Positions 1 through 6,488 of a DNA stretch of 6,488 nucleotides are shown piece after piece. Position numbers and translations under genes: made by a program. The DNA lies in assembly GCA_937967805.1 (NCBI GenBank), contig CALBTC010000535.1, forward strand, positions 1 through 6,488, in the 5' to 3' direction. This stretch comes from an uncultured Anaerolineaceae bacterium (GTDB taxonomy: Bacteria; Chloroflexota; Anaerolineae; Promineifilales; Promineifilaceae). The notes beneath the pieces were generated by a model. That model ran no database searches. It had not been told where the DNA came from and saw nothing but the letters and a program-made list of their open reading frames with translations. Positions within the stretch are counted from its first letter, which is position 1, and every line of letters starts with the position of its first letter.

Positions 1-361
1 AGTTCACCGACACGGCAACCATTGAGATCAACGTCACCGATGTTAATGAAGCCCCAACCGTGGACCCCAACACCTTCACTGTGCCGGAAAACAGCTCGAA
101 CGGATCAAATGTTGGCACCCCGGTTACTGCTTCTGACCCCGAAGATGACAGCCTGACGTTCAATATAATCAGCGGCGATCCCGACAATGTCTTTGACATT
201 GGTACCACCTCCGGCCAGATTACGGTTGCCAATAACAGCTTCCTGGATTTTGAAGACCAGGGCGCCACCCCCCACTTCTCTCTCACGGTCGAAGTTGATG
301 ACGGCGAGTTCACCGACACGGCAACCATTGAGATCAACGTCACCGATGTTAATGAAGCCCC
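1..361 (+). repeat. 55-bp exact direct repeat at 1-55 and 307-361
   Basis: Bases 1-55 and 307-361 are identical. They encode FTDTATIEINVTDVNEAP at the end of two consecutive cadherin-like domains. The spacing is 306 bp, exactly 102 codons, the length of one domain. The next two domains have diverged in sequence, so this pair reflects a recent duplication or gene conversion of one domain unit. The identity may extend further to the left, outside the window. Confidence 0.95.
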
Positions 362-1367
362 CACTGTAAACGACAATTCATTCAGCATCAATGAAAATAG
401 CAGTAATGCAACTGAGGTTGGTACCGTCATTGCTTCAGACCCGGACGCTGCCGACGTAAATGCCCTTAATTTTGGCATTCTTTCCGGTAATGGAAGTGGT
501 GCTTTTGCTATTGCCAATTCCAACGACGGCAACAACAACGGTATCATTACAGTAGCAAACAGTAGCCTACTTGATTATGAAACGACACAAAGTTTTATGT
601 TAGGCGTTGTCGTCACTGACACTGGCGGTTTGCAAAATACCGCCAATGTGACCATCAACCTCAACAACCTTTTTGATGAGGCGCCAACAGTAAATAATGC
701 AACTTTCACAGTGGCTCAAGGCAGTAATGACGGTGTTGTCGTCGGTACCGTTTCCGCTACAGATCCAGAATTTGCCAGTGGCGACACGTTAACCTTCTCG
801 ATTATTGGTGGCAATACCGGCTTTGTCTTTGCCATCAACAGCAGCAGCGGTCAAATTACCGTGCCTGATGCCAGCAAACTTGATGCAGACGCCATGCCCA
901 CCTTCAACCTAACTGTTCAAGCTATCGACGAGGGTGACAATATTGATACAGGCATCATAACGATAAATGTGTCGCCACTGCCAATCACCTACGTCTACTT
1001 GCCAATCATGCTGAACAACTACCCGCCCATTGAGCCAAACGACAATTGTAGCCAGGCCTATGGCATCAGCAGCGGTCGGGATTATGAATTCACGGCCGAT
1101 GATGTTGAAGATTGGTACGCCATCACGCTGACAAGCGCTGCCAACCTGACCGTGATTTTGTCCAGCTTTGAGCCGGCTCAAGGGCAGTTGATCGTATACG
1201 ACGGCACAACCTGTCCTAACCCCACGTTGATAGCCAATAACGGAACGCCCGACACCACCGAGAAAGTCTTAAATTTGGGCGTTCGCCCGGCAGGTCGTTA
1301 TTACATTCGTGTGTTCAGCCAACCGGTGACAAACACGACCTACACGCTTCGGGTCAACATCAACTAA
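1..1367 (+). CDS. Secreted multi-cadherin-domain protein with C-terminal PPC-like domain (5' end outside the window)
   Basis: The frame is open from base 3, so the gene begins upstream; the GTG at 60 is internal. Seen: the tail of one cadherin-like domain (to about 55), then three further copies at roughly 57-362, 363-690 and 690-990. They show the usual marks: PEN or NEN near the start, DPE/DPD calcium-type motifs, SGQITV, LD-E/LDYE, and DVNEAPTV linkers. The third copy is divergent: it has AQGSN in place of xEN and ends in INVSPLPI without a DxNEAPT linker. Next comes a hydrophobic linker VYLPIMLNNY, then about 110 residues starting EPNDN with DDVEDWY, RPAGRYYIRV and YTLRV, typical of pre-peptidase C-terminal (PPC) domains. 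This domain has two cysteines (codons 1047 and 1212) that could pair. Such proteins are normally exported and act in adhesion or as surface enzymes; the N-terminal part that would show the activity is missing. Asn/Thr richness and lower GC set it apart from its neighbours. It ends convergently with the acyl-CoA dehydrogenase gene. Confidence 0.88.
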   Translation, partial: FTDTATIEINVTDVNEAPTVDPNTFTVPENSSNGSNVGTPVTASDPEDDSLTFNIISGDPDNVFDIGTTSGQITVANNSFLDFEDQGATPHFSLTVEVDDGEFTDTATIEINVTDVNEAPTVNDNSFSINENSSNATEVGTVIASDPDAADVNALNFGILSGNGSGAFAIANSNDGNNNGIITVANSSLLDYETTQSFMLGVVVTDTGGLQNTANVTINLNNLFDEAPTVNNATFTVAQGSNDGVVVGTVSATDPEFASGDTLTFSIIGGNTGFVFAINSSSGQITVPDASKLDADAMPTFNLTVQAIDEGDNIDTGIITINVSPLPITYVYLPIMLNNYPPIEPNDNCSQAYGISSGRDYEFTADDVEDWYAITLTSAANLTVILSSFEPAQGQLIVYDGTTCPNPTLIANNGTPDTTEKVLNLGVRPAGRYYIRVFSQPVTNTTYTLRVNIN

Positions 1368-1368
1368 C

Positions 1369-1422
1369 GTGATGCGTGAAACGTGAAACGTGATTTTGTT
1401 TGAGTCACGTTTCACGCATCAC
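1369..1422. repeat. Intergenic inverted repeat, TGAAACG family, 18-bp perfect arms
   Basis: GTGATGCGTGAAACGTGA (1369-1386) is the exact reverse complement of 1405-1422; the loop is 18 nt. The left arm continues as a partial tandem repeat (GTGAAAC twice), so the right arm can also pair in a second register with 1383-1393. It fills the gap between two convergent genes and could serve both as a transcription end. Neither side has a T-run, so it is not a standard intrinsic terminator. The first 19 bases (1368-1386) recur exactly at 5601-5619, which points to a dispersed REP-like element. Confidence 0.85.
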
Positions 1423-1431
1423 CCCCAGTCT

Positions 1432-2580
1432 CTATAAATTCAAAATGTGTCGGGCAATAACCAGCCGCTGAATTTCGCTGGTGCCTTCGCCGATGGTCAT
1501 CAGCCGCGTGTCGCGGTACATGCGCTCTACCTCGAATTCACTGCTGTAGCCGTAGCCGCCGTGAATCTGGATGGCGTTGCGGCAAACGCGCTCGCTGACC
1601 TCTGTGGCAAACAGCTTGGCCATCGCCGCTTCTTTGGTAAATTTCTTGCCGGCCCCTTTGAGGGATGCCGCCCAGTAGACCATCAGGCGAGCTGCCTGAA
1701 GCTCGGTGGCGGCGTCGGCCAGCATCCACTGGATGGCCTGGTGCTGGGCGATGGGCTTGCCAAATGTTTCGCGCTCATGGGCGTACTGCACGGCCGTTTC
1801 ATACGCCGCCTGCCCCAAACCAATGGCCAACGCGCCGATGCCCACGCGCCCACTGTCCAACGTAGCCAACGTTTGCTGCAAACCACGCCCCTCTTCCCCC
1901 AGCAAGTTCTCCAACGGCACGCGCACCTCTTCAAACGTCACGGCGTGGGTGGGTGAGCCTTTTAGCCCCATCTTCTTTTCCGCCGGACCAATCGTAATGC
2001 CCGGCGTATCTGTAGGCACCAAAATGTGGCTCAGTGAATGGCTGCCGCCGGCATTATCGGTGCGGCACAGCACCACCATCAAATCGGAGATGGAAGCATT
2101 GGTCATCCACATCTTGGCCCCGTCGATGATCCAGGAGTCGCCTTCTTTGACGGCCGTTGTCCGCATCCCACCCTGCAAATCAGACCCCGCCCCCGGCTCC
2201 GTGAGCGATAGGCAGCCTAACTTTCCTTTGCCTGTTGCCAGAGGCGGCAGCCACAGTTCTTTTTGCGCCTCGTTACCATATTTCACGATAGGTCCCAGCG
2301 CCAGGCCGTTGTGGGCCGACACGGCCAGCGCCGTGGAACCACAGCCCCAGCCCAACTCTTCCACAGCAATGGCCGCGCTGACAGCATCCACCTGGGCTCC
2401 GCCATATTCTTCGGGCACTTCCAGACCCAGCAGGCCAATGGGACCCATCTTTTTAACGGCCGTCCAGTTAAACTCGCCAGATTCATCCGTTTCTCGGGCC
2501 ATCGGCTTTAGCTCTTTGGCCACAAAATCATGCACAATATGTTGAAACTCGCGCTGTTCTTCACTTAGTTCAAAGTTCAT
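1432..2580 (-). CDS. Acyl-CoA dehydrogenase (FAD-dependent, short/branched-chain type)
   Basis: This flavoenzyme oxidises an acyl-CoA to the 2,3-enoyl-CoA in the cytoplasm and passes electrons to electron-transfer flavoprotein. The 382 residues match the normal family length, with an N-terminal helical domain (about 6-117), a middle beta domain (about 121-215) and a C-terminal helical domain (about 225-375). Seen: LTEPGAGSD at 126-134, WMTNAS at 158-163, ERETFGKPI at 269-277, QIHGGYGY at 338-345 and IGEGTSEIQR at 363-372. Glu365 in that last motif sits where the catalytic base of short- and medium-chain enzymes lies. The chain length of the substrate cannot be read from sequence: butyryl-, 2-methylbutyryl- or another acyl-CoA are all possible. 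The ATG at 2580 is preceded by AAGGAAGAAGAG, an acceptable ribosome-binding site. It lies 55 bp after the peptidase gene on the same strand, so the two may share a transcript. No ETF or other beta-oxidation genes are visible next to it. Three ACGGCCGT octamers lie inside. Confidence 0.95.
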   Translation of the reverse strand: MNFELSEEQREFQHIVHDFVAKELKPMARETDESGEFNWTAVKKMGPIGLLGLEVPEEYGGAQVDAVSAAIAVEELGWGCGSTALAVSAHNGLALGPIVKYGNEAQKELWLPPLATGKGKLGCLSLTEPGAGSDLQGGMRTTAVKEGDSWIIDGAKMWMTNASISDLMVVLCRTDNAGGSHSLSHILVPTDTPGITIGPAEKKMGLKGSPTHAVTFEEVRVPLENLLGEEGRGLQQTLATLDSGRVGIGALAIGLGQAAYETAVQYAHERETFGKPIAQHQAIQWMLADAATELQAARLMVYWAASLKGAGKKFTKEAAMAKLFATEVSERVCRNAIQIHGGYGYSSEFEVERMYRDTRLMTIGEGTSEIQRLVIARHILNL

Positions 2581-2609
2581 AGCTCTTCTTCCTTTTTAGT
2601 GGGACTTGG

Positions 2610-2622
2610 TTTCACGCTTCAC
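2610..2622. repeat. Degenerate half copy of the TGAAACG repeat
   Basis: TTTCACGCTTCAC differs at one base from the right arm of the inverted repeat at 1369-1422 (TTTCACGCATCAC). No matching left arm is seen within the 55-bp gap between the peptidase and the dehydrogenase genes. It is probably a decayed or partial copy, although at 13 bp a chance match cannot be excluded. Confidence 0.45.
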
Positions 2623-2635
2623 TATCTATATTAGT

Positions 2636-3805
2636 CTAGATGCCGGCTACAGAAAGTGCCAGCAGCAGCAGTTGCTGCATCCCGGCAGCCAGGTGGGTGC
2701 TGTCCATGTACTCATCCAGTCGATGGGCGTGGCCGGATTCGGTGAGGCCGATGCATACGGCCGTAAATCCCTGGCTCAACGGCACGTTGGCATCTGTGCT
2801 GCTGGCAATGAAGCTGATTTTTTCACAGCCCACATGCTTCAGCGCCGCCTTCGCCTGCTGCACCAGGGGATGCTGCCGTGGCAGATGCCCCGCCGGGCGA
2901 TTGCCGATTTGCGTCATTTTCACCGTCACTTTAGGCACCTGTTGTCGCAATGAGACCAGCTTCTCCACTTCTGCCAGCAAGATGGCCAACCGGCTTGGCT
3001 CCTCAGAACGCAAATCGAGCAGCATCCTGGCCGATTGGGCAATCGTGTTGATCGACGTGCCACCCTCAACAATGCCTGCATTATAGGTGGTTTTGGGCCG
3101 TGCCGGCAGTTGCAGCTTGTCGATGGCGGCAATCAGGTGCCCCAGTTCATGAATGGCGCTGGGCTGGCCAAAATTGCCCCAGGAATGGCCGCCCGGCGTG
3201 CTGATGCTGATTTCAAAGCGCTGCACGCCAATGGCCTGGTGAGAAATCTGCCCATACAGCCCGCCTTCAATGATCAGGTAAACCGCCTCACCGCCAAACC
3301 GCTCTACCACGGCCCACATGCCGCGTAAATCGCCCAACCCTTCTTCACCCACGTTGGCCACAAACCAGATGTCGGCTAACGGCCGTATCTCACAAATCTG
3401 CAACGCTTCAACCAGGGCCAATAAACCGGCCACGCCGGTGGAATTGTCGCCAATGCCGGGGCCATAAATAAGCTGGTCTTCGCGTCGAATGGTGAGATCA
3501 GTTTCGGCGGGGAAAACGGTGTCGCTGTGGGCCGAAATGATAAGCGGGTGATGCTCTGCTGGTTGGCTGCCGGGGAAACGGCCGTACACGTTATGCAGTT
3601 CGTCCTGGGCCACATCTACCAGGCCAACTTCGGCAAACTGCTGCTCTAAATAGGCGGCCCGTCTGGCTTCGGCAAAGGTGGGGGCCGGAATTTGCTGGAT
3701 AGCAATGGCCTGCTCCACCAGTTGGGGAACCGTCTCAGAAAAGTGAATGAGGGCAGCTTGAACACGGCCGTTTTGGGCAACAGCTTCAATTGGAATCATG
3801 CGCAT
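2636..3805 (-). CDS. M20-family metallopeptidase (PepT/ArgE/DapE-like zinc hydrolase)
   Basis: Cytoplasmic dizinc hydrolase of the M20 clan, which cleaves dipeptides, tripeptides or N-acyl amino acids. With the start at 3805 (389 residues), the metal and catalytic set is complete: SAHSDTVF with His93 and Asp95, GIGDNSTG with bridging Asp120, GEEG with Glu154/Glu155, IIEGG with Glu180, and AHRLDEY with His361 near the C-terminus. A lid/dimerisation domain lies between, from about QRFEISISTPGGHSWGNFG to the stretch before SSTDAN. The motifs are intact, so it is probably active; the substrate is unknown. Start choice: the longest frame begins at a GTG (3838) directly behind an in-frame TAA, but that GTG lies within an inverted-repeat arm, so I prefer ATG 3805 or ATG 3799. 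Neither has a clear ribosome-binding site. It lies upstream of the acyl-CoA dehydrogenase gene and behind a palindrome-rich gap. Confidence 0.92.
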   Translation of the reverse strand: MRMIPIEAVAQNGRVQAALIHFSETVPQLVEQAIAIQQIPAPTFAEARRAAYLEQQFAEVGLVDVAQDELHNVYGRFPGSQPAEHHPLIISAHSDTVFPAETDLTIRREDQLIYGPGIGDNSTGVAGLLALVEALQICEIRPLADIWFVANVGEEGLGDLRGMWAVVERFGGEAVYLIIEGGLYGQISHQAIGVQRFEISISTPGGHSWGNFGQPSAIHELGHLIAAIDKLQLPARPKTTYNAGIVEGGTSINTIAQSARMLLDLRSEEPSRLAILLAEVEKLVSLRQQVPKVTVKMTQIGNRPAGHLPRQHPLVQQAKAALKHVGCEKISFIASSTDANVPLSQGFTAVCIGLTESGHAHRLDEYMDSTHLAAGMQQLLLLALSVAGI

Positions 3806-3825
3806 GAAAAGATGGGCAACTGTAC

Positions 3826-3890
3826 AGGTGCGACGCACTTACACCAAAGTTAAGTACGGCAAGCAGTGCTCATGAAAGTGCGTCGCACCT
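3826..3890. repeat. 65-bp palindromic unit with 15-bp perfect inverted arms
   Basis: AGGTGCGACGCACTT (3826-3840) is the exact reverse complement of 3876-3890. Each arm is itself almost palindromic around GTGCG-n-CGCAC. The 35-bp centre contains another short near-palindrome (AGCAGTGCT at 3862-3870). The unit lies just upstream of the peptidase gene, and its left arm covers the GTG at 3838 and the preceding TAA. No transposase is seen. It looks like a REP- or MITE-type element. Together with the two units that follow, it fills the 231-bp gap 3806-4036; I see no promoter or RNA gene there that I can support. Confidence 0.85.
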
Positions 3891-3932
3891 CCAGCACCGA
3901 GTCGTTGCGAAAAACAAGATAGAGGGACTAGT

Positions 3933-3984
3933 ACAGTCCGGCGGAAATTCACACAACGATATTATGTCGAGCTCGCCGGACTGT
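3933..3984. repeat. 52-bp inverted repeat with 11-bp perfect arms (ACAGTCCGGCG)
   Basis: ACAGTCCGGCG (3933-3943) pairs perfectly with CGCCGGACTGT (3974-3984) around a 30-nt, AT-richer centre. It lies between the small membrane protein gene and the peptidase gene. The arms are unrelated in sequence to the neighbouring units. There is no T-run directly after either arm, so a standard terminator is unlikely on sequence alone; a REP-like element or processing hairpin is the alternative. Confidence 0.8.
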
Positions 3985-3987
3985 TTA

Positions 3988-4038
3988 AGTATTGCGCCGC
4001 AGTCCATAACCTGATGCGAACTTCTGGGGCGCAATACT
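3988..4038. repeat. 51-bp inverted repeat (AGTATTGCGCC arms) overlapping a stop codon
   Basis: AGTATTGCGCC (3988-3998) pairs perfectly with GGCGCAATACT (4028-4038). The stem continues inwards to 4002/4024 after one mismatch, giving 14 of 15 pairs and a 21-nt loop. It starts three bases after the previous repeat ends. Its right arm reaches into the TAG stop (4037-4039) of the small membrane protein gene, so the hairpin would form at the very end of that coding sequence. It could halt transcription or protect the 3' end of the hflX transcript, but no T-run follows it. Confidence 0.8.
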
Positions 4039-4255
4039 AGGTCAACGGCCGTACAACCAGCAAGCCAATTAGACTGATAATAAGACCCAGGTGCAGCAAA
4101 ATGTGCCGGTCAACAAACCAACTGCCTGGAAAAATCTGTAAAATTAAATTTAAAATAATGAGAACAAGGCCAAGCAGCGGCAAAAATCCTGGATATTTAC
4201 TAATTAACTCACCAAGTCTGTCGATAAATTCATTCATTGGCTGTCTGCCGTCCAT
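4037..4255 (-). CDS. Small two-helix membrane protein, unknown function
   Basis: I do not recognise a family. The 72-residue product has a short charged N-terminus (NEFIDRLGELISKYP), then a hydrophobic segment at about 23-42 (GFLPLLGLVLIILNLILQIF), a short loop with PGSWFVDRH, and a second hydrophobic segment at about 51-68. This predicts two inner-membrane helices joined by a tight turn. The frame overlaps the end of hflX: the first ATG is at 4255, and a second at 4237 forms ATGAATGA with the hflX stop TGA. Either start suggests translational coupling to hflX. The second start would give 66 residues and is the more typical arrangement. The TAG stop is embedded in an inverted repeat, and an ACGGCCGT octamer lies at 4045-4052. 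I count it as real because of the coherent hydrophobic pattern and the tight overlap; a chance frame remains possible. Confidence 0.68.
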   Translation of the reverse strand: MDGRQPMNEFIDRLGELISKYPGFLPLLGLVLIILNLILQIFPGSWFVDRHILLHLGLIISLIGLLVVRPLT

Positions 4256-5648
4256 TCATGTAAGGTTCAAAATATGGTACCAGTCGTTTTGGCAAACGTC
4301 CATAAACAATGACGCCCTCCGCCGTGTGTTCCTCACCATCCACCTGGCCGCGTTCATACATCAGCGAAAGCAAATCGCCTCGTTTGTAAGGCAGCAGCAC
4401 GGTCAACGGCTGCAAGTAGCGCACCATGGCGGCGTCAATTGCTACCAGCAGTTCCTGAATACCTTCGCCCGTCACGGCCGAAACCGGCACCGTCGGATAA
4501 GGTAAATCAAACAGTTTCATCGGCTCTACATTTTCTGGCAGCAAATCAATCTTGTTCAGCGCCACCACCATCGGTAAATGATCTACCTCAAGCTCAGCCA
4601 GGGTATCTTCTACGGATTCGATTTGCGCTTCTGCGTTGGGATGGGTGGCATCCACGATGTGCAGCAGCATATCGGCCTCGGTAATCTCTTCCAGCGTGGC
4701 GCGAAAAGCGGCCACAATGTCCGTCGGCAGCTTTTGAATGAAGCCCACCGTATCGGTAAAGAGCAGCTCACGGCCACCGGGCATATTTACTTTGCGCGTG
4801 GTGGGGTCCAGCGTGGCAAACAGCATGTCGGCCGAAAGCACGTTCGCGTCGCTTAATTTGTTGAGCAGCGTCGATTTGCCCGCGTTAGTGTAGCCGACAA
4901 TGGCCACCACTTGCAGCTCTGTTTGCTGCCGTTTGGCTCGATGCCGCTCGCGATGGGCCCGCACATTTTCTAATTGATCTTTGATGTGGGCAATGCGCCG
5001 CCCAATTTCACGCCGGTCCGTTTCCAGCTGGGTTTCACCAGGACCGCGCAGGCCAACGCCACCGCCCATGCCACCCACGCGGCCACCTGCCTGCCGGGCC
5101 AGGTGGGTCCACATGCGCGTCAGGCGCGGCACACGGTATTCCAGTTGGGCCAGCTCCACCTGGAGCTTGCCCTCACGCGTTTGGGCATGTTGAGCAAAAA
5201 TGTCCAGAATCAGCGCCGTACGGTCAATGACTTTCACATCTTCGCCAAACTCTTTTTCCAGCTCGCGCTGGTGGCGTGGGTTCAGTTCATCATCAAAGAG
5301 AACCACGTCAGCATCCAGCTCCTCGATGAGTATTTTAACTTCTTCAACCTTACCGGAACCGATGAAGGTGGCGCTGTCGGGGCGATCAAACCGCTGGACG
5401 GTTTGTCCCACCACAACCAACCCGGCCGTATCGGCCAGGCGTTGCAGCTCCAGCAAGCTATCCTCGACGGGCAGTAACGGCCGTCCCTGTTTCAATTCTG
5501 CCCCAACCAAAAAAGCGCGCTCTTTTGGCCGCGTGGTCTCGTAAAATTTTTGGGAAATAGTGACCTCCGCTGAAAAGGTGGTTCTTTGGAAATTCAGGCG
5601 CGTGATGCGTGAAACGTGATTCTTCTCACGTTTCACGCCAAACCTCAT
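4230..5648 (-). CDS. hflX: GTPase HflX, ribosome-associated
   Basis: HflX binds the large ribosomal subunit and, in characterised bacteria, splits or rescues stalled ribosomes under stress using GTP. Numbered from ATG 5648 (472 residues): the HflX N-terminal domain begins at about RAFLVGAEL (44-52). IGSGKVEE and DDELNPRHQRELE follow, then a coiled linker and the glycine-rich loop GGMGGGVGLRGPGETQLETDRR (about 193-213). The G domain has G1 GYTNAGKST (252-260), G2 within ATLDPTTR, G3 DTVGF (299-303), G4 NKID (365-368) and G5 SA (390-391). A short C-terminal domain completes the protein. All nucleotide-binding motifs are intact. The start is uncertain: TTG 5666, TTG 5657, ATG 5648 and GTG 5636 all lie upstream of or on the edge of an inverted repeat, while a GGAGGT stands just before an in-frame ATT at 5558, which would give a 442-residue protein with the usual N-terminus. 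The gene follows the MuiA-like gene and overlaps the small membrane protein gene. Confidence 0.96.
   Translation of the reverse strand: MRFGVKREKNHVSRITRLNFQRTTFSAEVTISQKFYETTRPKERAFLVGAELKQGRPLLPVEDSLLELQRLADTAGLVVVGQTVQRFDRPDSATFIGSGKVEEVKILIEELDADVVLFDDELNPRHQRELEKEFGEDVKVIDRTALILDIFAQHAQTREGKLQVELAQLEYRVPRLTRMWTHLARQAGGRVGGMGGGVGLRGPGETQLETDRREIGRRIAHIKDQLENVRAHRERHRAKRQQTELQVVAIVGYTNAGKSTLLNKLSDANVLSADMLFATLDPTTRKVNMPGGRELLFTDTVGFIQKLPTDIVAAFRATLEEITEADMLLHIVDATHPNAEAQIESVEDTLAELEVDHLPMVVALNKIDLLPENVEPMKLFDLPYPTVPVSAVTGEGIQELLVAIDAAMVRYLQPLTVLLPYKRGDLLSLMYERGQVDGEEHTAEGVIVYGRLPKRLVPYFEPYMNGRQTANE
5556..5568 (-). promoter_or_regulatory. Perfect Shine-Dalgarno GGAGGT before an in-frame ATT: candidate true start of hflX
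   Basis: Read on the - strand, GGAGGT occupies 5568-5563, then CACT, then ATT at 5558-5556 in the hflX frame. Translation from here would begin SQKFYETTRPKERAFLVG, placing the conserved HflX start about a dozen residues in, as in typical members. No ATG, GTG or TTG in frame lies nearby. AUU is a known rare start codon, used by infC and pcnB in E. coli. The alternative is that GGAGG is a chance match within Ala-Glu-Val codons. Confidence 0.45.
5601..5638. repeat. Second copy of the TGAAACG inverted repeat, 13-bp perfect arms
   Basis: GCGTGAAACGTGA (5607-5619) pairs perfectly with TCACGTTTCACGC (5626-5638) around a 6-nt loop. Bases 5601-5619 are identical to 1368-1386, and 5626-5638 are identical to 1405-1417. 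The outer GTGAT of the left arm has no partner on the right here, so this copy is a shortened version with a smaller loop. It lies between the stop of the MuiA-like gene and the conserved part of hflX, either in the leader or, if an upstream start is used, within the first codons of hflX. There it would fold into a strong hairpin in the mRNA. Confidence 0.88.
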
Positions 5649-5672
5649 AAAGTCCAAATAACCCAAATCATA

Positions 5673-6488
5673 CTAATCCAACAGTCCAACCACGTTCAAG
5701 TTTCGTGGATGCTCGACGCTGTATTCGTAGCGCACGGTTTCCTCCGCGCCGTTGGCCAAATTAAGCTGCCATTCCAGCAGGTTCAAATCGGTTTGCTCCG
5801 TGGGCTGCGGCCGTACGTCTTCTAATTTTACCTTGATCTGCTCGTGGCGCGAAACGGGAATGTGATCTTTAACCACAATTCGGGCCTCGGTTTTGAGCAA
5901 GTTTTTCAGAGCAATGGTGGAACCATAGCGCAGCTGCCGCTGATCGCGCAGCAATTTTTTGTCCACGTCGCGCCGGGCCAGCTTTCGTTCAACGATGATG
6001 CGGTCTTCTACACCCAGCAGCAGTTCCAATTCATCCCCCTGGGCGGTGAATTTAATCTGAGTTTGGCCAATATATTCTTCACCAACAAACAGGCTGGCAG
6101 CACCGGGCAGCAGCGGACCGGACTGCTCATAGGCCACCGTCGCCCGCCGGAAAACGGCATCACTGTATTTGGGGATGGTGAGATAATCCAGCTTCGGCTC
6201 CAGGCGGATTTGCTGCAAGGTGGTTTTGTGGGGCGACCCGTCGTTGGGAATATCGGTTTGGCCTGGGGCGCGGAAGGTTACGGCCGTTCCCTCCGACTGT
6301 ACCTCCGCCGCCACCGTTTCAGCGGCAACTCTTTCCGCGGCCGCCTCCGGCTCCGGTGAAGCTTCGGCCACCATCATCTCCATTTTGGCGGCAGCCGGGG
6401 CAGGCTGGGCGGCACGCACCAGTTGGCGCGGCTGGGGCGGCTGGTATTCACGAATGAACCAGGGTTGAATCTCCGGCAATCTCTGGTT
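5673..6488 (-). CDS. MuiA-family protein, C-terminal DUF4139 domain (5' end outside the window)
   Basis: The frame is open to the right edge (codons AAC CAG AGA precede the TTG at 6479), so about half the protein is missing. The visible part starts with a Pro/Ala/Glu-rich low-complexity stretch (PAPAAAKMEMM to EVQSEG) that separates the DUF4139 core from the unseen N-terminus, where this family has DUF4140 and a coiled coil. Then come features of DUF4139: NDGSPHKTTL, LDYLTIPKYSDAVFRRATV, GPLLPGAASLFVGEEYIGQT, GDELELLLGVEDRIIVERKL, and a C-terminal beta-rich stretch with RHEQIKVKLED and LEWQLNLANGAEETVRYEYSVEHP. Some members are called mucoidy inhibitor MuiA, but the biochemical role is unknown; the beta-rich fold suggests a structural or binding job rather than catalysis. 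No signal peptide can be judged. It ends about 105 bp before the Shine-Dalgarno site of hflX, on the same strand. Confidence 0.85.
   Translation of the reverse strand, partial: NQRLPEIQPWFIREYQPPQPRQLVRAAQPAPAAAKMEMMVAEASPEPEAAAERVAAETVAAEVQSEGTAVTFRAPGQTDIPNDGSPHKTTLQQIRLEPKLDYLTIPKYSDAVFRRATVAYEQSGPLLPGAASLFVGEEYIGQTQIKFTAQGDELELLLGVEDRIIVERKLARRDVDKKLLRDQRQLRYGSTIALKNLLKTEARIVVKDHIPVSRHEQIKVKLEDVRPQPTEQTDLNLLEWQLNLANGAEETVRYEYSVEHPRNLNVVGLLD

Follow-up and report, generated by a model that had tools for sequence, protein, structure and literature searches.

A genome-wide octameric palindrome with outer-base dialects in one family of Chloroflexota and in tailed phages

Introduction

The closest described counterpart of the element treated here is the highly iterated palindrome HIP1 of cyanobacteria (GCGATCGC, core CGATCG), a GC-rich octamer. 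According to those sections of Elhai (2015, PMC4390886) that deal with abundance and with alternate HIPs, such palindromes reach about 500-2500 copies per Mb, are replaced by another palindrome in some lineages and are missing in others. The role of HIP1 is unsettled, and the background given in PMC6604393 names chromosome structure, recombination and gene regulation as roles that have all been proposed. In a contig of 6,488 nucleotides from an uncultured Anaerolineaceae bacterium (Chloroflexota; GenBank CALBTC010000535.1, positions 1 to 6,488, hereafter the window), we analysed a different GC-rich octameric palindrome, ACGGCCGT, with the core CGGCCG. It resembles HIP1 in reaching 1-2 copies per kb in the genomes of relatives, in being replaced by another palindrome or missing in some lineages, and in occurring in phages (HIP1 in two Nostoc phages, the present octamer in tailed phages). 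It differs in that the outer base varies between species of a single family, giving dialects A, T and G, in its soft flanks that vary by species, in its large measured effect on proteins, and in that none of the methyltransferase families searched is universal among its carriers. Literature searches returned no earlier report of genomic ACGGCCGT or of any iterated palindrome from Chloroflexota; the octamer itself appears in an unrelated context.

Two other kinds of dispersed sequence invite comparison. DNA uptake sequences of Neisseriaceae and Pasteurellaceae are, as we understand them, likewise densely spread and conserved, their core being constant while the flanking bases differ between lineages; the motif described here differs from them in being palindromic and dense in tailed phages, and to our knowledge the known uptake sequences are not palindromic. 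Chi is asymmetric and oriented. Like the present motif, Chi (given as GCTGGTGG in the relevant part of PMC5101192) is an over-represented octamer scattered genome-wide, whereas the motif here is a dyad.

Results

Ten copies in the window

In the window, ACGGCCGT occurs ten times without a mismatch (Table 1), compared with a mean of 0.12 and a maximum of 2 in 200 dinucleotide shuffles, and the octamer ranks first among the 256 palindromic octamers, the runners-up having 2 copies. A first-pass annotation of this DNA had reported ten copies against a chance expectation of about 0.1 and had placed them in five genes and all three reading phases, and both statements were confirmed. The host genes, all on the minus strand, encode an acyl-CoA dehydrogenase (3 copies), an M20 peptidase (4), the product of a small open reading frame (ORF) (1), HflX (1) and a DUF4139 protein (1), while the copies read as Thr-Ala-Val (TAV) in five cases, Arg-Pro-Leu (RPL) in three and Gly-Arg (GR) in two. 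The frame of the copy at 4045 was taken as RPL because the open frame 4040-4255 terminates in ...VVRPLT.

Copy by copy, the window was compared with seven relatives (G041, G042, G043, G001, G002, G003 and G004), the first four of which have HflX proteins 93%, 92%, 88% and 85% identical to that of the window and are all motif-rich as defined below. Outside the sites, nucleotide identity to the window was 0.84 in G041, 0.80 in G042 and 0.78 in both G001 and G043; the sites themselves were intact in nine of ten cases in G041 and again in G042, in eight of ten in G001 and in six of the seven alignable ones in G043.

Distribution across the family and the phylum

Genome-scale counts come from the genomes of relatives, namely 52 species genomes of the GTDB family to which the closest named relative (locus L001) belongs. 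Comparison of the window HflX protein with contigs of named genomes gave 80 Chloroflexota loci. Five of the nine loci closest by HflX had ACGGCCGT densities of 1.55-2.03 per kb; the remaining close loci carried seven copies (L006), one (L007) or none (L005), or had GCGGCCGC instead (L008, 43 in 21 kb), and loci L010-L080 had 0-2 copies each.

Within the family, 27 of the 52 genomes were motif-rich, with 2,984-15,176 copies each and 1.0-2.1 per kb (exact counts, rounded genome sizes), the density being intermediate in G025, G029 and G057 (0.4-0.5 per kb) and below 0.2 per kb in the other 22. The reversed octamer TGCCGGCA reached 40-459 copies per motif-rich genome. A survey of 400 Chloroflexota genomes spread over the phylum, three of which are family members, gave at most 471 copies in each of the other 397, and the abundance is restricted to this one family. 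The order contributes just four further genomes beyond the family.

Against a second-order Markov model, the ratio of observed to expected counts (O/E) was 28-134 in 25 of the 26 readable motif-rich genomes and 12 in the remaining one, G023, the DNA of G043 being given as N. In the pooled motif-rich DNA of the A dialect, palindromes one symmetric change away from ACGGCCGT stood at 0-1.24 of expectation. The first-pass annotation had proposed a HIP1-like excess in Chloroflexota, to be compared in copy number among related genomes and to be given up if the count lay near the Markov expectation or if similar GC-rich octamers were equally in excess; the figures above, together with those for TGCCGGCA, support the proposal and match neither ground for giving it up. 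Chance, composition and codon use as sources of the excess are rejected by the shuffles, the Markov counts and the retention of sites under a fixed peptide (see below).

Coding sites were divided among the three frames as 851, 512 and 217 of 1580, the TAV frame being the commonest (851). The core CGGCCG outnumbered its reversed form GCCGGC in 48 of the 52 family genomes, and therefore some of the core excess is broader than the octamer. In a HflX protein tree (midpoint-rooted, support values not considered), the motif-poor genomes G006, G007 and G046-G050 are nested in the motif-rich part, which suggests that these lineages lost the element.

A separate observation concerns GCCGGC, which is almost missing from G008 (51 in 8.0 Mb), G025 (132), G001 (864) and G042 (869) and common in G041 (5,116), a close relative; its scarcity resembles the avoidance of sites that a restriction-modification system brings about.

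Conservation in place beyond coding constraint

Retention was followed in 2,312 ordered A-dialect orthologue pairs, with genes called by a simple longest-frame rule and with 1,078 octamers of the same composition that contain neither CGGCC nor GGCCG as control. At 55-65% identity, ACGGCCGT was retained at 885 of 2153 sites (41%), compared with 818 of 21948 (3.7%) for the control octamers; the corresponding counts were 643/1287 versus 1644/20351 at 65-72%, 663/940 versus 2030/17518 at 72-80%, and 264/303 versus 1112/3792 at 80-90% identity. When one distant partner was used per protein, 210 of 398 sites were kept versus 355 of 5617 in the control.

The first-pass annotation had raised the question whether copies are conserved at orthologous sites beyond what codons require, and this was borne out. 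Where both genomes had the identical peptide, the octamer was kept in 727 of 747 (97%), 825 of 969 (85%) and 232 of 277 (84%) cases in the respective frames, compared with 0 of 21 (0%), 24 of 184 (13%) and 0 of 65 (0%) for other codings of peptides able to encode the octamer.

Site states and the protected centre

Sites are either intact or far from the motif, and rarely in between. In a tally that weights each site once (749 sites at 55-65% identity), 39.1% of A sites were unchanged and 1.5% had one change, compared with 0.9% and 11.9% for other palindromes and with 6.4% and 10.9% for A sites facing motif-less genomes. At 65-80% identity the one-change share was 3.6% for A sites, 29.5% for other palindromes and 12.2% for sites facing motif-less genomes. 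Single changes between A genomes (111, as 21 + 90 pair counts) fell on an outer base 70 times, on position 2 nine times, on position 3 in 32 cases and never on positions 4 and 5.

Deviations are thus rare at positions 4 and 5 and commonest at positions 1 and 8 in both systems, given that section 2.6 of Elhai (2015, PMC4390886) describes the same avoidance and the same excess for HIP1. The avoidance is tied there to selection on the methylated GATC position. Here, the central-base rule is also valid across a set of genomes in which the families searched gave no common methyltransferase.

Dialects and flanking bases

Octamer spectra were obtained from readable DNA for 50 of the 52 genomes (G043 and G051 being N, and several having less than 10 kb), and dialects were named after the outer base around the core CGGCCG as A (ACGGCCGT), T (TCGGCCGA) and G (GCGGCCGC). 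The commonest palindromic octamer was ACGGCCGT in all 26 readable motif-rich genomes, TCGGCCGA in G024 (142 in 108 kb) and G040 (165 in 108 kb), and GCGGCCGC in G008 (238 in 139 kb, with a single ACGGCCGT). G008 also has GCCGCGGC raised beside its dialect octamer (28 versus 4.2 expected in 147 kb). TGCCGGCA leads in G036 (62 in 61 kb), whose whole genome has 3,665 TGCCGGCA and just 447 CGGCCG, and it reaches 886 copies in G037; in these two genomes it is another iterated palindrome with a different core. Finally, CGGCCG stands at 2.7-6.0 per kb in G025 and G057-G061 with no strong dominance of one outer base; ACGGCCGT still ranks first in G025 and G057, and G058-G061 show a bare-core pattern.

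The flanks extend the dyad and are soft and species-specific. The base preceding the motif is A or T at 94% of T-dialect sites and C or T at 91% of G-dialect sites, and within the A dialect it varies by genome (A at 95% in G027, C at 37-45% in G002 and G019-G023, G at 46% in G039; 17-275 sites per genome). GG at -4/-3 is preferred in the A dialect both inside and outside called genes.

A systematic rewriting of sites in place at a change of dialect is weakly supported, most sites of the new dialect lying at different places. At the 129 (A to T) and 116 (A to G) aligned positions the old octamer was lost, and motif-less genomes retain about 7% (48.5/679); the depth of divergence may be the cause of this loss.

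The mark on protein sequence

The motif imposes amino-acid changes on proteins. In motif-less or other-dialect genomes, the orthologue likewise had Thr at 247 of the 1,123 Thr positions inside the motif, compared with 18,272 of 29,239 Thr positions elsewhere; the deficits were smaller for Arg, Pro and Gly and slight for Ala and Val. TAV had an O/E of 6.1 in A-dialect proteins, as against 1.3 in motif-less genomes, 1.0 in the T dialect and 0.5 in the G dialect. For Ser-Ala-Glu (SAE) the O/E was 6.2 in T-dialect proteins, as against 1.4 in the G dialect, 0.8 in motif-less genomes and 0.7 in the A dialect. Ala-Ala-Ala reached 4.3 in the G dialect, 2.0 in motif-less genomes and 2.7 in G036. TAV in the A dialect and SAE in the T dialect are the tripeptides most enriched over the motif-less set; in the G-dialect and TGCCGGCA genomes, the list is headed by unrelated tripeptides of low count.

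Phages carrying the motif

Scanning IMG/VR for two ACGGCCGT copies at most 30 bases apart gave at least 120 stretches, and the median density among the 120 listed was 0.36 per kb, the top ones having 2.5-4.2 per kb. Chosen proteins of 11 motif-bearing viral contigs were compared with PHROGs, and in some cases with Pfam as well. Genes for a terminase, portal, head or tape-measure protein are present in seven of the 11 (3300048592_001391, 3300037518_000469, 3300024518_000002, 3300025615_000033, 3300003885_000957, 3300005673_000193 and 3300048589_000504). Contig 3300037470_000663 encodes an endolysin, DnaB, an integrase and a tail-spike match, 3300033417_000002 ParA, a P22-type anti-repressor, a lytic transglycosylase and an FtsK-like protein, and 3300037515_000543 a helicase loader, and the one protein scanned from 3300042196_000315 had no match.

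The density of ACGGCCGT was 1.40-3.46 per kb over the pieces examined of 12 viral contigs, of which 11 hold a motif pair and were found by it, with a bias towards dense ones, and one, L447, was reached by tape-measure protein similarity alone (9 copies in 6.4 kb). Contig 3300048592_001391 (L446, L375, L427), with portal, head, tape-measure, exonuclease, ParB and PAPS-reductase-like genes, has 120 copies in 36 kb (3.34 per kb) versus at most 2.1 per kb in any host genome. Neither the phage avoidance expected of a restriction-modification site nor the poverty or atypical distribution in mobile elements expected of an uptake sequence was found in these contigs, whose hosts are assigned from the motif alone. 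With the motif dense in tailed phages, an uptake sequence is therefore disfavoured and a restriction site even more so.

For TCGGCCGA, one scan gave at least 120 stretches and a second one, needing two flank-bearing copies, gave 98; among 99 loci from these scans TCGGCCGA was the clear top palindrome in two, L547 and L629. L547 was a false lead as a T-dialect phage, with all 11 copies in one ORF and G or C before the motif. By contrast, L629 (IMG/VR 3300030397_000542, 14.7 kb) has 11 copies over at least six genes, its proteins form a tailed-phage head, connector, tape-measure and tail module, and 22 of the 22 bases flanking TCGGCCGA are A or T (two forced by the search pattern), the same context as in T-dialect bacteria. 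In the first 30 kb of the Nostoc phages N1 (L569) and A1 (L570), at 36-37% GC, GCGATCGC is likewise the commonest of the 256 palindromic octamers (19 and 18 copies), for which literature searches returned no earlier report.

Alternative explanations

One explanation, which we regard as unlikely, is that an orphan enzyme marks GGCC or CGGCCG and that mark-guided mismatch repair ratchets near-sites to full sites, the model proposed for HIP1 in the corresponding sections of Elhai (2015, PMC4390886). The three dialects with the CGGCCG core have GC inside GGCC, which would be usable by the G-meC model as outlined there, and a kept centre with deviating ends is the HIP1 pattern of the same source. 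In addition, the portion of PMC6604393 on Synechocystis describes a GG(m4C)C enzyme with strong phenotypes, and a related m5C enzyme is common to G003, G033 and G039 (76-82% identical). The distribution of the enzymes, however, does not fit that of the motif. The m5C methyltransferases (PF00145) occur in 24 of the 52 genomes and in just 14 of the 27 motif-rich ones, and the fetched sequences fall in several groups. The N4/N6 methyltransferases (PF01555) are sporadic and often multi-copy, and five motif-rich genomes (G022, G028, G041, G042 and G052) have no match better than 9.5e-10; four of them, all except G041, are also without PF00145, although G022 has 14,867 copies of the octamer. Given that HflX was recovered in 27 and ComEC in 25 of the 27 motif-rich genomes, genome incompleteness alone is unlikely to be the cause of the missing methyltransferases.

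Members of the widest PF01555 group (7 of 30 loci, with one locus in each genome) are found in motif-poor G006 too; in G001, the one case examined, the gene adjoins a BglII-type endonuclease. At L105:1378-3015, an N4/N6 methyltransferase with an SPPY motif lies beside a BglII-type restriction endonuclease, and its group is present in at least seven family genomes, with and without the octamer; this commonest N4/N6 group looks like an ordinary restriction-modification pair. Vsr is present in 8 of the 52 genomes. As causes of the motif, m5C and N4/N6 methyltransferases, Vsr and DndC were all rejected on their distributions. The case for a dedicated methyltransferase as the cause is further weakened by genomes that obey the central-base rule although no such enzyme turned up in them. 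The suggestion in the first-pass annotation of an orphan methyltransferase recognising CGGCCG thus finds no support, neither PF00145 nor PF01555 being present in all motif-rich genomes (other families were not searched).

That the motif serves in DNA uptake, like the dialect-bearing uptake sequences of Neisseriaceae and Pasteurellaceae, and is restored by preferential uptake and recombination, appears improbable. A core that stays constant while the outer bases change does resemble uptake sequences, as do the soft extended flanks; dialects of uptake sequences are described in the part of PMC3630211 on this subject, and ComEC occurs in 47 of the 52 genomes. It occurs, however, with and without the motif, does not split motif-rich from motif-poor genomes and was rejected as a discriminator. 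Moreover, integrative elements of Neisseriaceae show atypical distributions of uptake sequences, as far as the relevant part of PMC7371117 goes, whereas here tailed phages lie at or above the density of the host.

Codon or mutation bias, or a protein motif, is very improbable as the source. Its support is that the TAV frame is the commonest, and it is opposed by the occurrence of the octamer in three frames and outside called genes, by the retention of 84-97% versus 0-13% with the peptide fixed, by related palindromes that are not in excess and by a tripeptide that differs by dialect. DNA phosphorothioation (Dnd), the Streptomyces form of which has a GGCC core, has that core and nothing else in its favour, is already largely refuted by the distribution of DndC (TIGR03183; 5 of 52 genomes over the cut-off, and 10 of 52 if every match at E 0.001 is counted) and retains a negligible chance.

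Other features of the window

Positions 1-1367 of the window encode a cadherin-repeat surface protein with the C-terminal segment YVYLPIMLNN. The first-pass annotation had taken the lack of copies in this gene as a possible sign that it is recently acquired or differently evolved, which did not hold up: the chance of finding no copy in 1.37 kb is about 0.12 if the density is that of the nearest relatives, and the homologous region in G041 has two copies of ACGGCCGT, the aligned part in G042 one. The repeat has several overlapping matches in G041, so the number of repeats may differ.

By eye, positions 1369-1425 and 5605-5640 hold alike intergenic inverted repeats of GTGAAACGTGA and TCACGTTTCACGC, after or between genes, which look REP- or terminator-like, and the intergenic stretch 3838-4040 holds more inverted repeats, GTGCGACGCAC ... 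GTGCGTCGCAC and AGTCCGGCG ... CGCCGGACT.

Table 1. Copies of ACGGCCGT in the window, their state in seven relatives, and the genes that carry them
Feature	Position	Strand	Description
ACGGCCGT copy 1	1790..1797		acyl-CoA dehydrogenase, Thr-Ala-Val; intact in G041, G042; one change in G001
ACGGCCGT copy 2	2150..2157		acyl-CoA dehydrogenase, Thr-Ala-Val; intact in G001, G002, G003; one change each in G041, G042
ACGGCCGT copy 3	2456..2463		acyl-CoA dehydrogenase, Thr-Ala-Val; intact in G041, G042, G001, G002, G003
ACGGCCGT copy 4	2757..2764		M20 peptidase, Thr-Ala-Val; intact in G041, G042, G043, G001, G002; one change in G003
ACGGCCGT copy 5	3379..3386		M20 peptidase, Arg-Pro; intact in G041, G042, G043, G001; absent from G002, G003, G004
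ACGGCCGT copy 6	3578..3585		M20 peptidase, Gly-Arg; intact in 7/7 relatives
ACGGCCGT copy 7	3764..3771		M20 peptidase, Gly-Arg; intact in G041, G042, G043, G001; other three not alignable
ACGGCCGT copy 8	4045..4052		end of small ORF (open frame 4040-4255, minus), Arg-Pro; intact in G041, G042, G043, G001; other three not alignable
ACGGCCGT copy 9	5477..5484		hflX, Arg-Pro; intact in G041, G042, G002, G003, G004; changed in G043, G001
ACGGCCGT copy 10	6280..6287		DUF4139 gene, Thr-Ala-Val; intact in 7/7 relatives
Acyl-CoA dehydrogenase gene (copies 1-3)	1432..2580	-	Pfam PF00441, PF02771, PF02770
M20 peptidase gene (copies 4-7)	2636..3838	-	Pfam PF01546
hflX GTPase gene (copy 9)	4230..5666	-	Pfam PF16360, PF13167, PF01926; query for relatives and tree
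DUF4139 protein gene (copy 10)	5673..6488	-	Pfam PF13598; truncated by window end

Discussion

We consider it somewhat probable that ACGGCCGT is a HIP-type element, that is, a genome-wide palindrome of 8 bp with soft outer preferences, kept and restored by a cell factor that recognises the dyad. The features of such an element were found here: a genome-wide excess, occurrence in unrelated genes, in all frames and outside called genes, deviations that avoid the centre, and maintenance in place beyond codons. The element works like HIP1 and is not HIP1: it belongs to another phylum, has another core and dialects, takes the forms ACGGCCGT, TCGGCCGA, GCGGCCGC and TGCCGGCA rather than GCGATCGC, and no cognate methyltransferase was found in all its carriers with PF00145 and PF01555, other families not having been searched. 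This last rule is not absolute for HIP1 itself, since section 3.4 of Elhai (2015, PMC4390886) describes some HIP1 genomes without a CGATCG enzyme.

Four features are consistent with a symmetric DNA-binding factor: the dyad, flanks that are soft and vary by species, a centre protected from change, and the presence of the motif in phages. Such a factor, whose preference for the outer base would differ by species, would act on any DNA present in the cell, that of phages as well as the chromosome. Under such a factor, near-matches would be converted to full matches and losses undone, and this might come about by two routes: DNA with well-placed sites could be repaired, organised or spared better, or repair itself could be biased towards the site. 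By either route, the force per site would have to be strong, and methylation by a dedicated enzyme would not be required in every species.

Several observations weigh against a HIP-type element maintained in this way. The density outside called genes is lower in four of five sets (1.01 versus 1.58 per kb in the A set), the outside set including unrecognised short genes. Regular spacing is weakly supported: the coefficient of variation is 0.81 and 0.83 in G024 and G040 (about 2.3 standard deviations below random) and 0.89 in G020 (1.5 standard deviations), and at 1.12 in G022 it is not more even than random. The orthologue pairs behind the retention counts overlap (hflX and rpoBC recur), so these counts are not independent trials. 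Dialect switches in place are rare (A to T at 4 of 129 aligned positions, A to G at 9 of 116), the other dialects are known from two, one and one genomes, and no G-dialect (GCGGCCGC) phage was seen among the 120 stretches listed in a scan for GCGGCCGC. Finally, 14 of the 52 genomes lack all three of abundant ACGGCCGT, another dialect and the bare-core pattern seen in G058-G061, and the element is therefore dispensable over evolutionary time.

A more far-reaching and doubtful idea is that the motif is a licence for DNA to live in the cell, a self-mark written in sequence instead of methylation, with a host system that would organise, repair or spare DNA bearing enough sites of the right dialect and disfavour DNA that lacks them. 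If this were true, phages would have evolved the motif for that reason, some of them becoming denser than any measured chromosome and at least one using the T dialect; foreign DNA would meet a barrier in a species whose dialect had changed, and the HIP1 of cyanobacteria would be the same kind of licence.

Apart from the licence idea, the strong mark that the HIP-type element leaves on proteins is a case of a DNA-level signal shaping proteins, and the motif may serve to tag phages of uncultured hosts. With a second system in another phylum that has dialects, motif-free species and motif-bearing phages, the question of what HIPs do becomes a comparative one, in which a gene that varies with the dialect would be a candidate for the factor.

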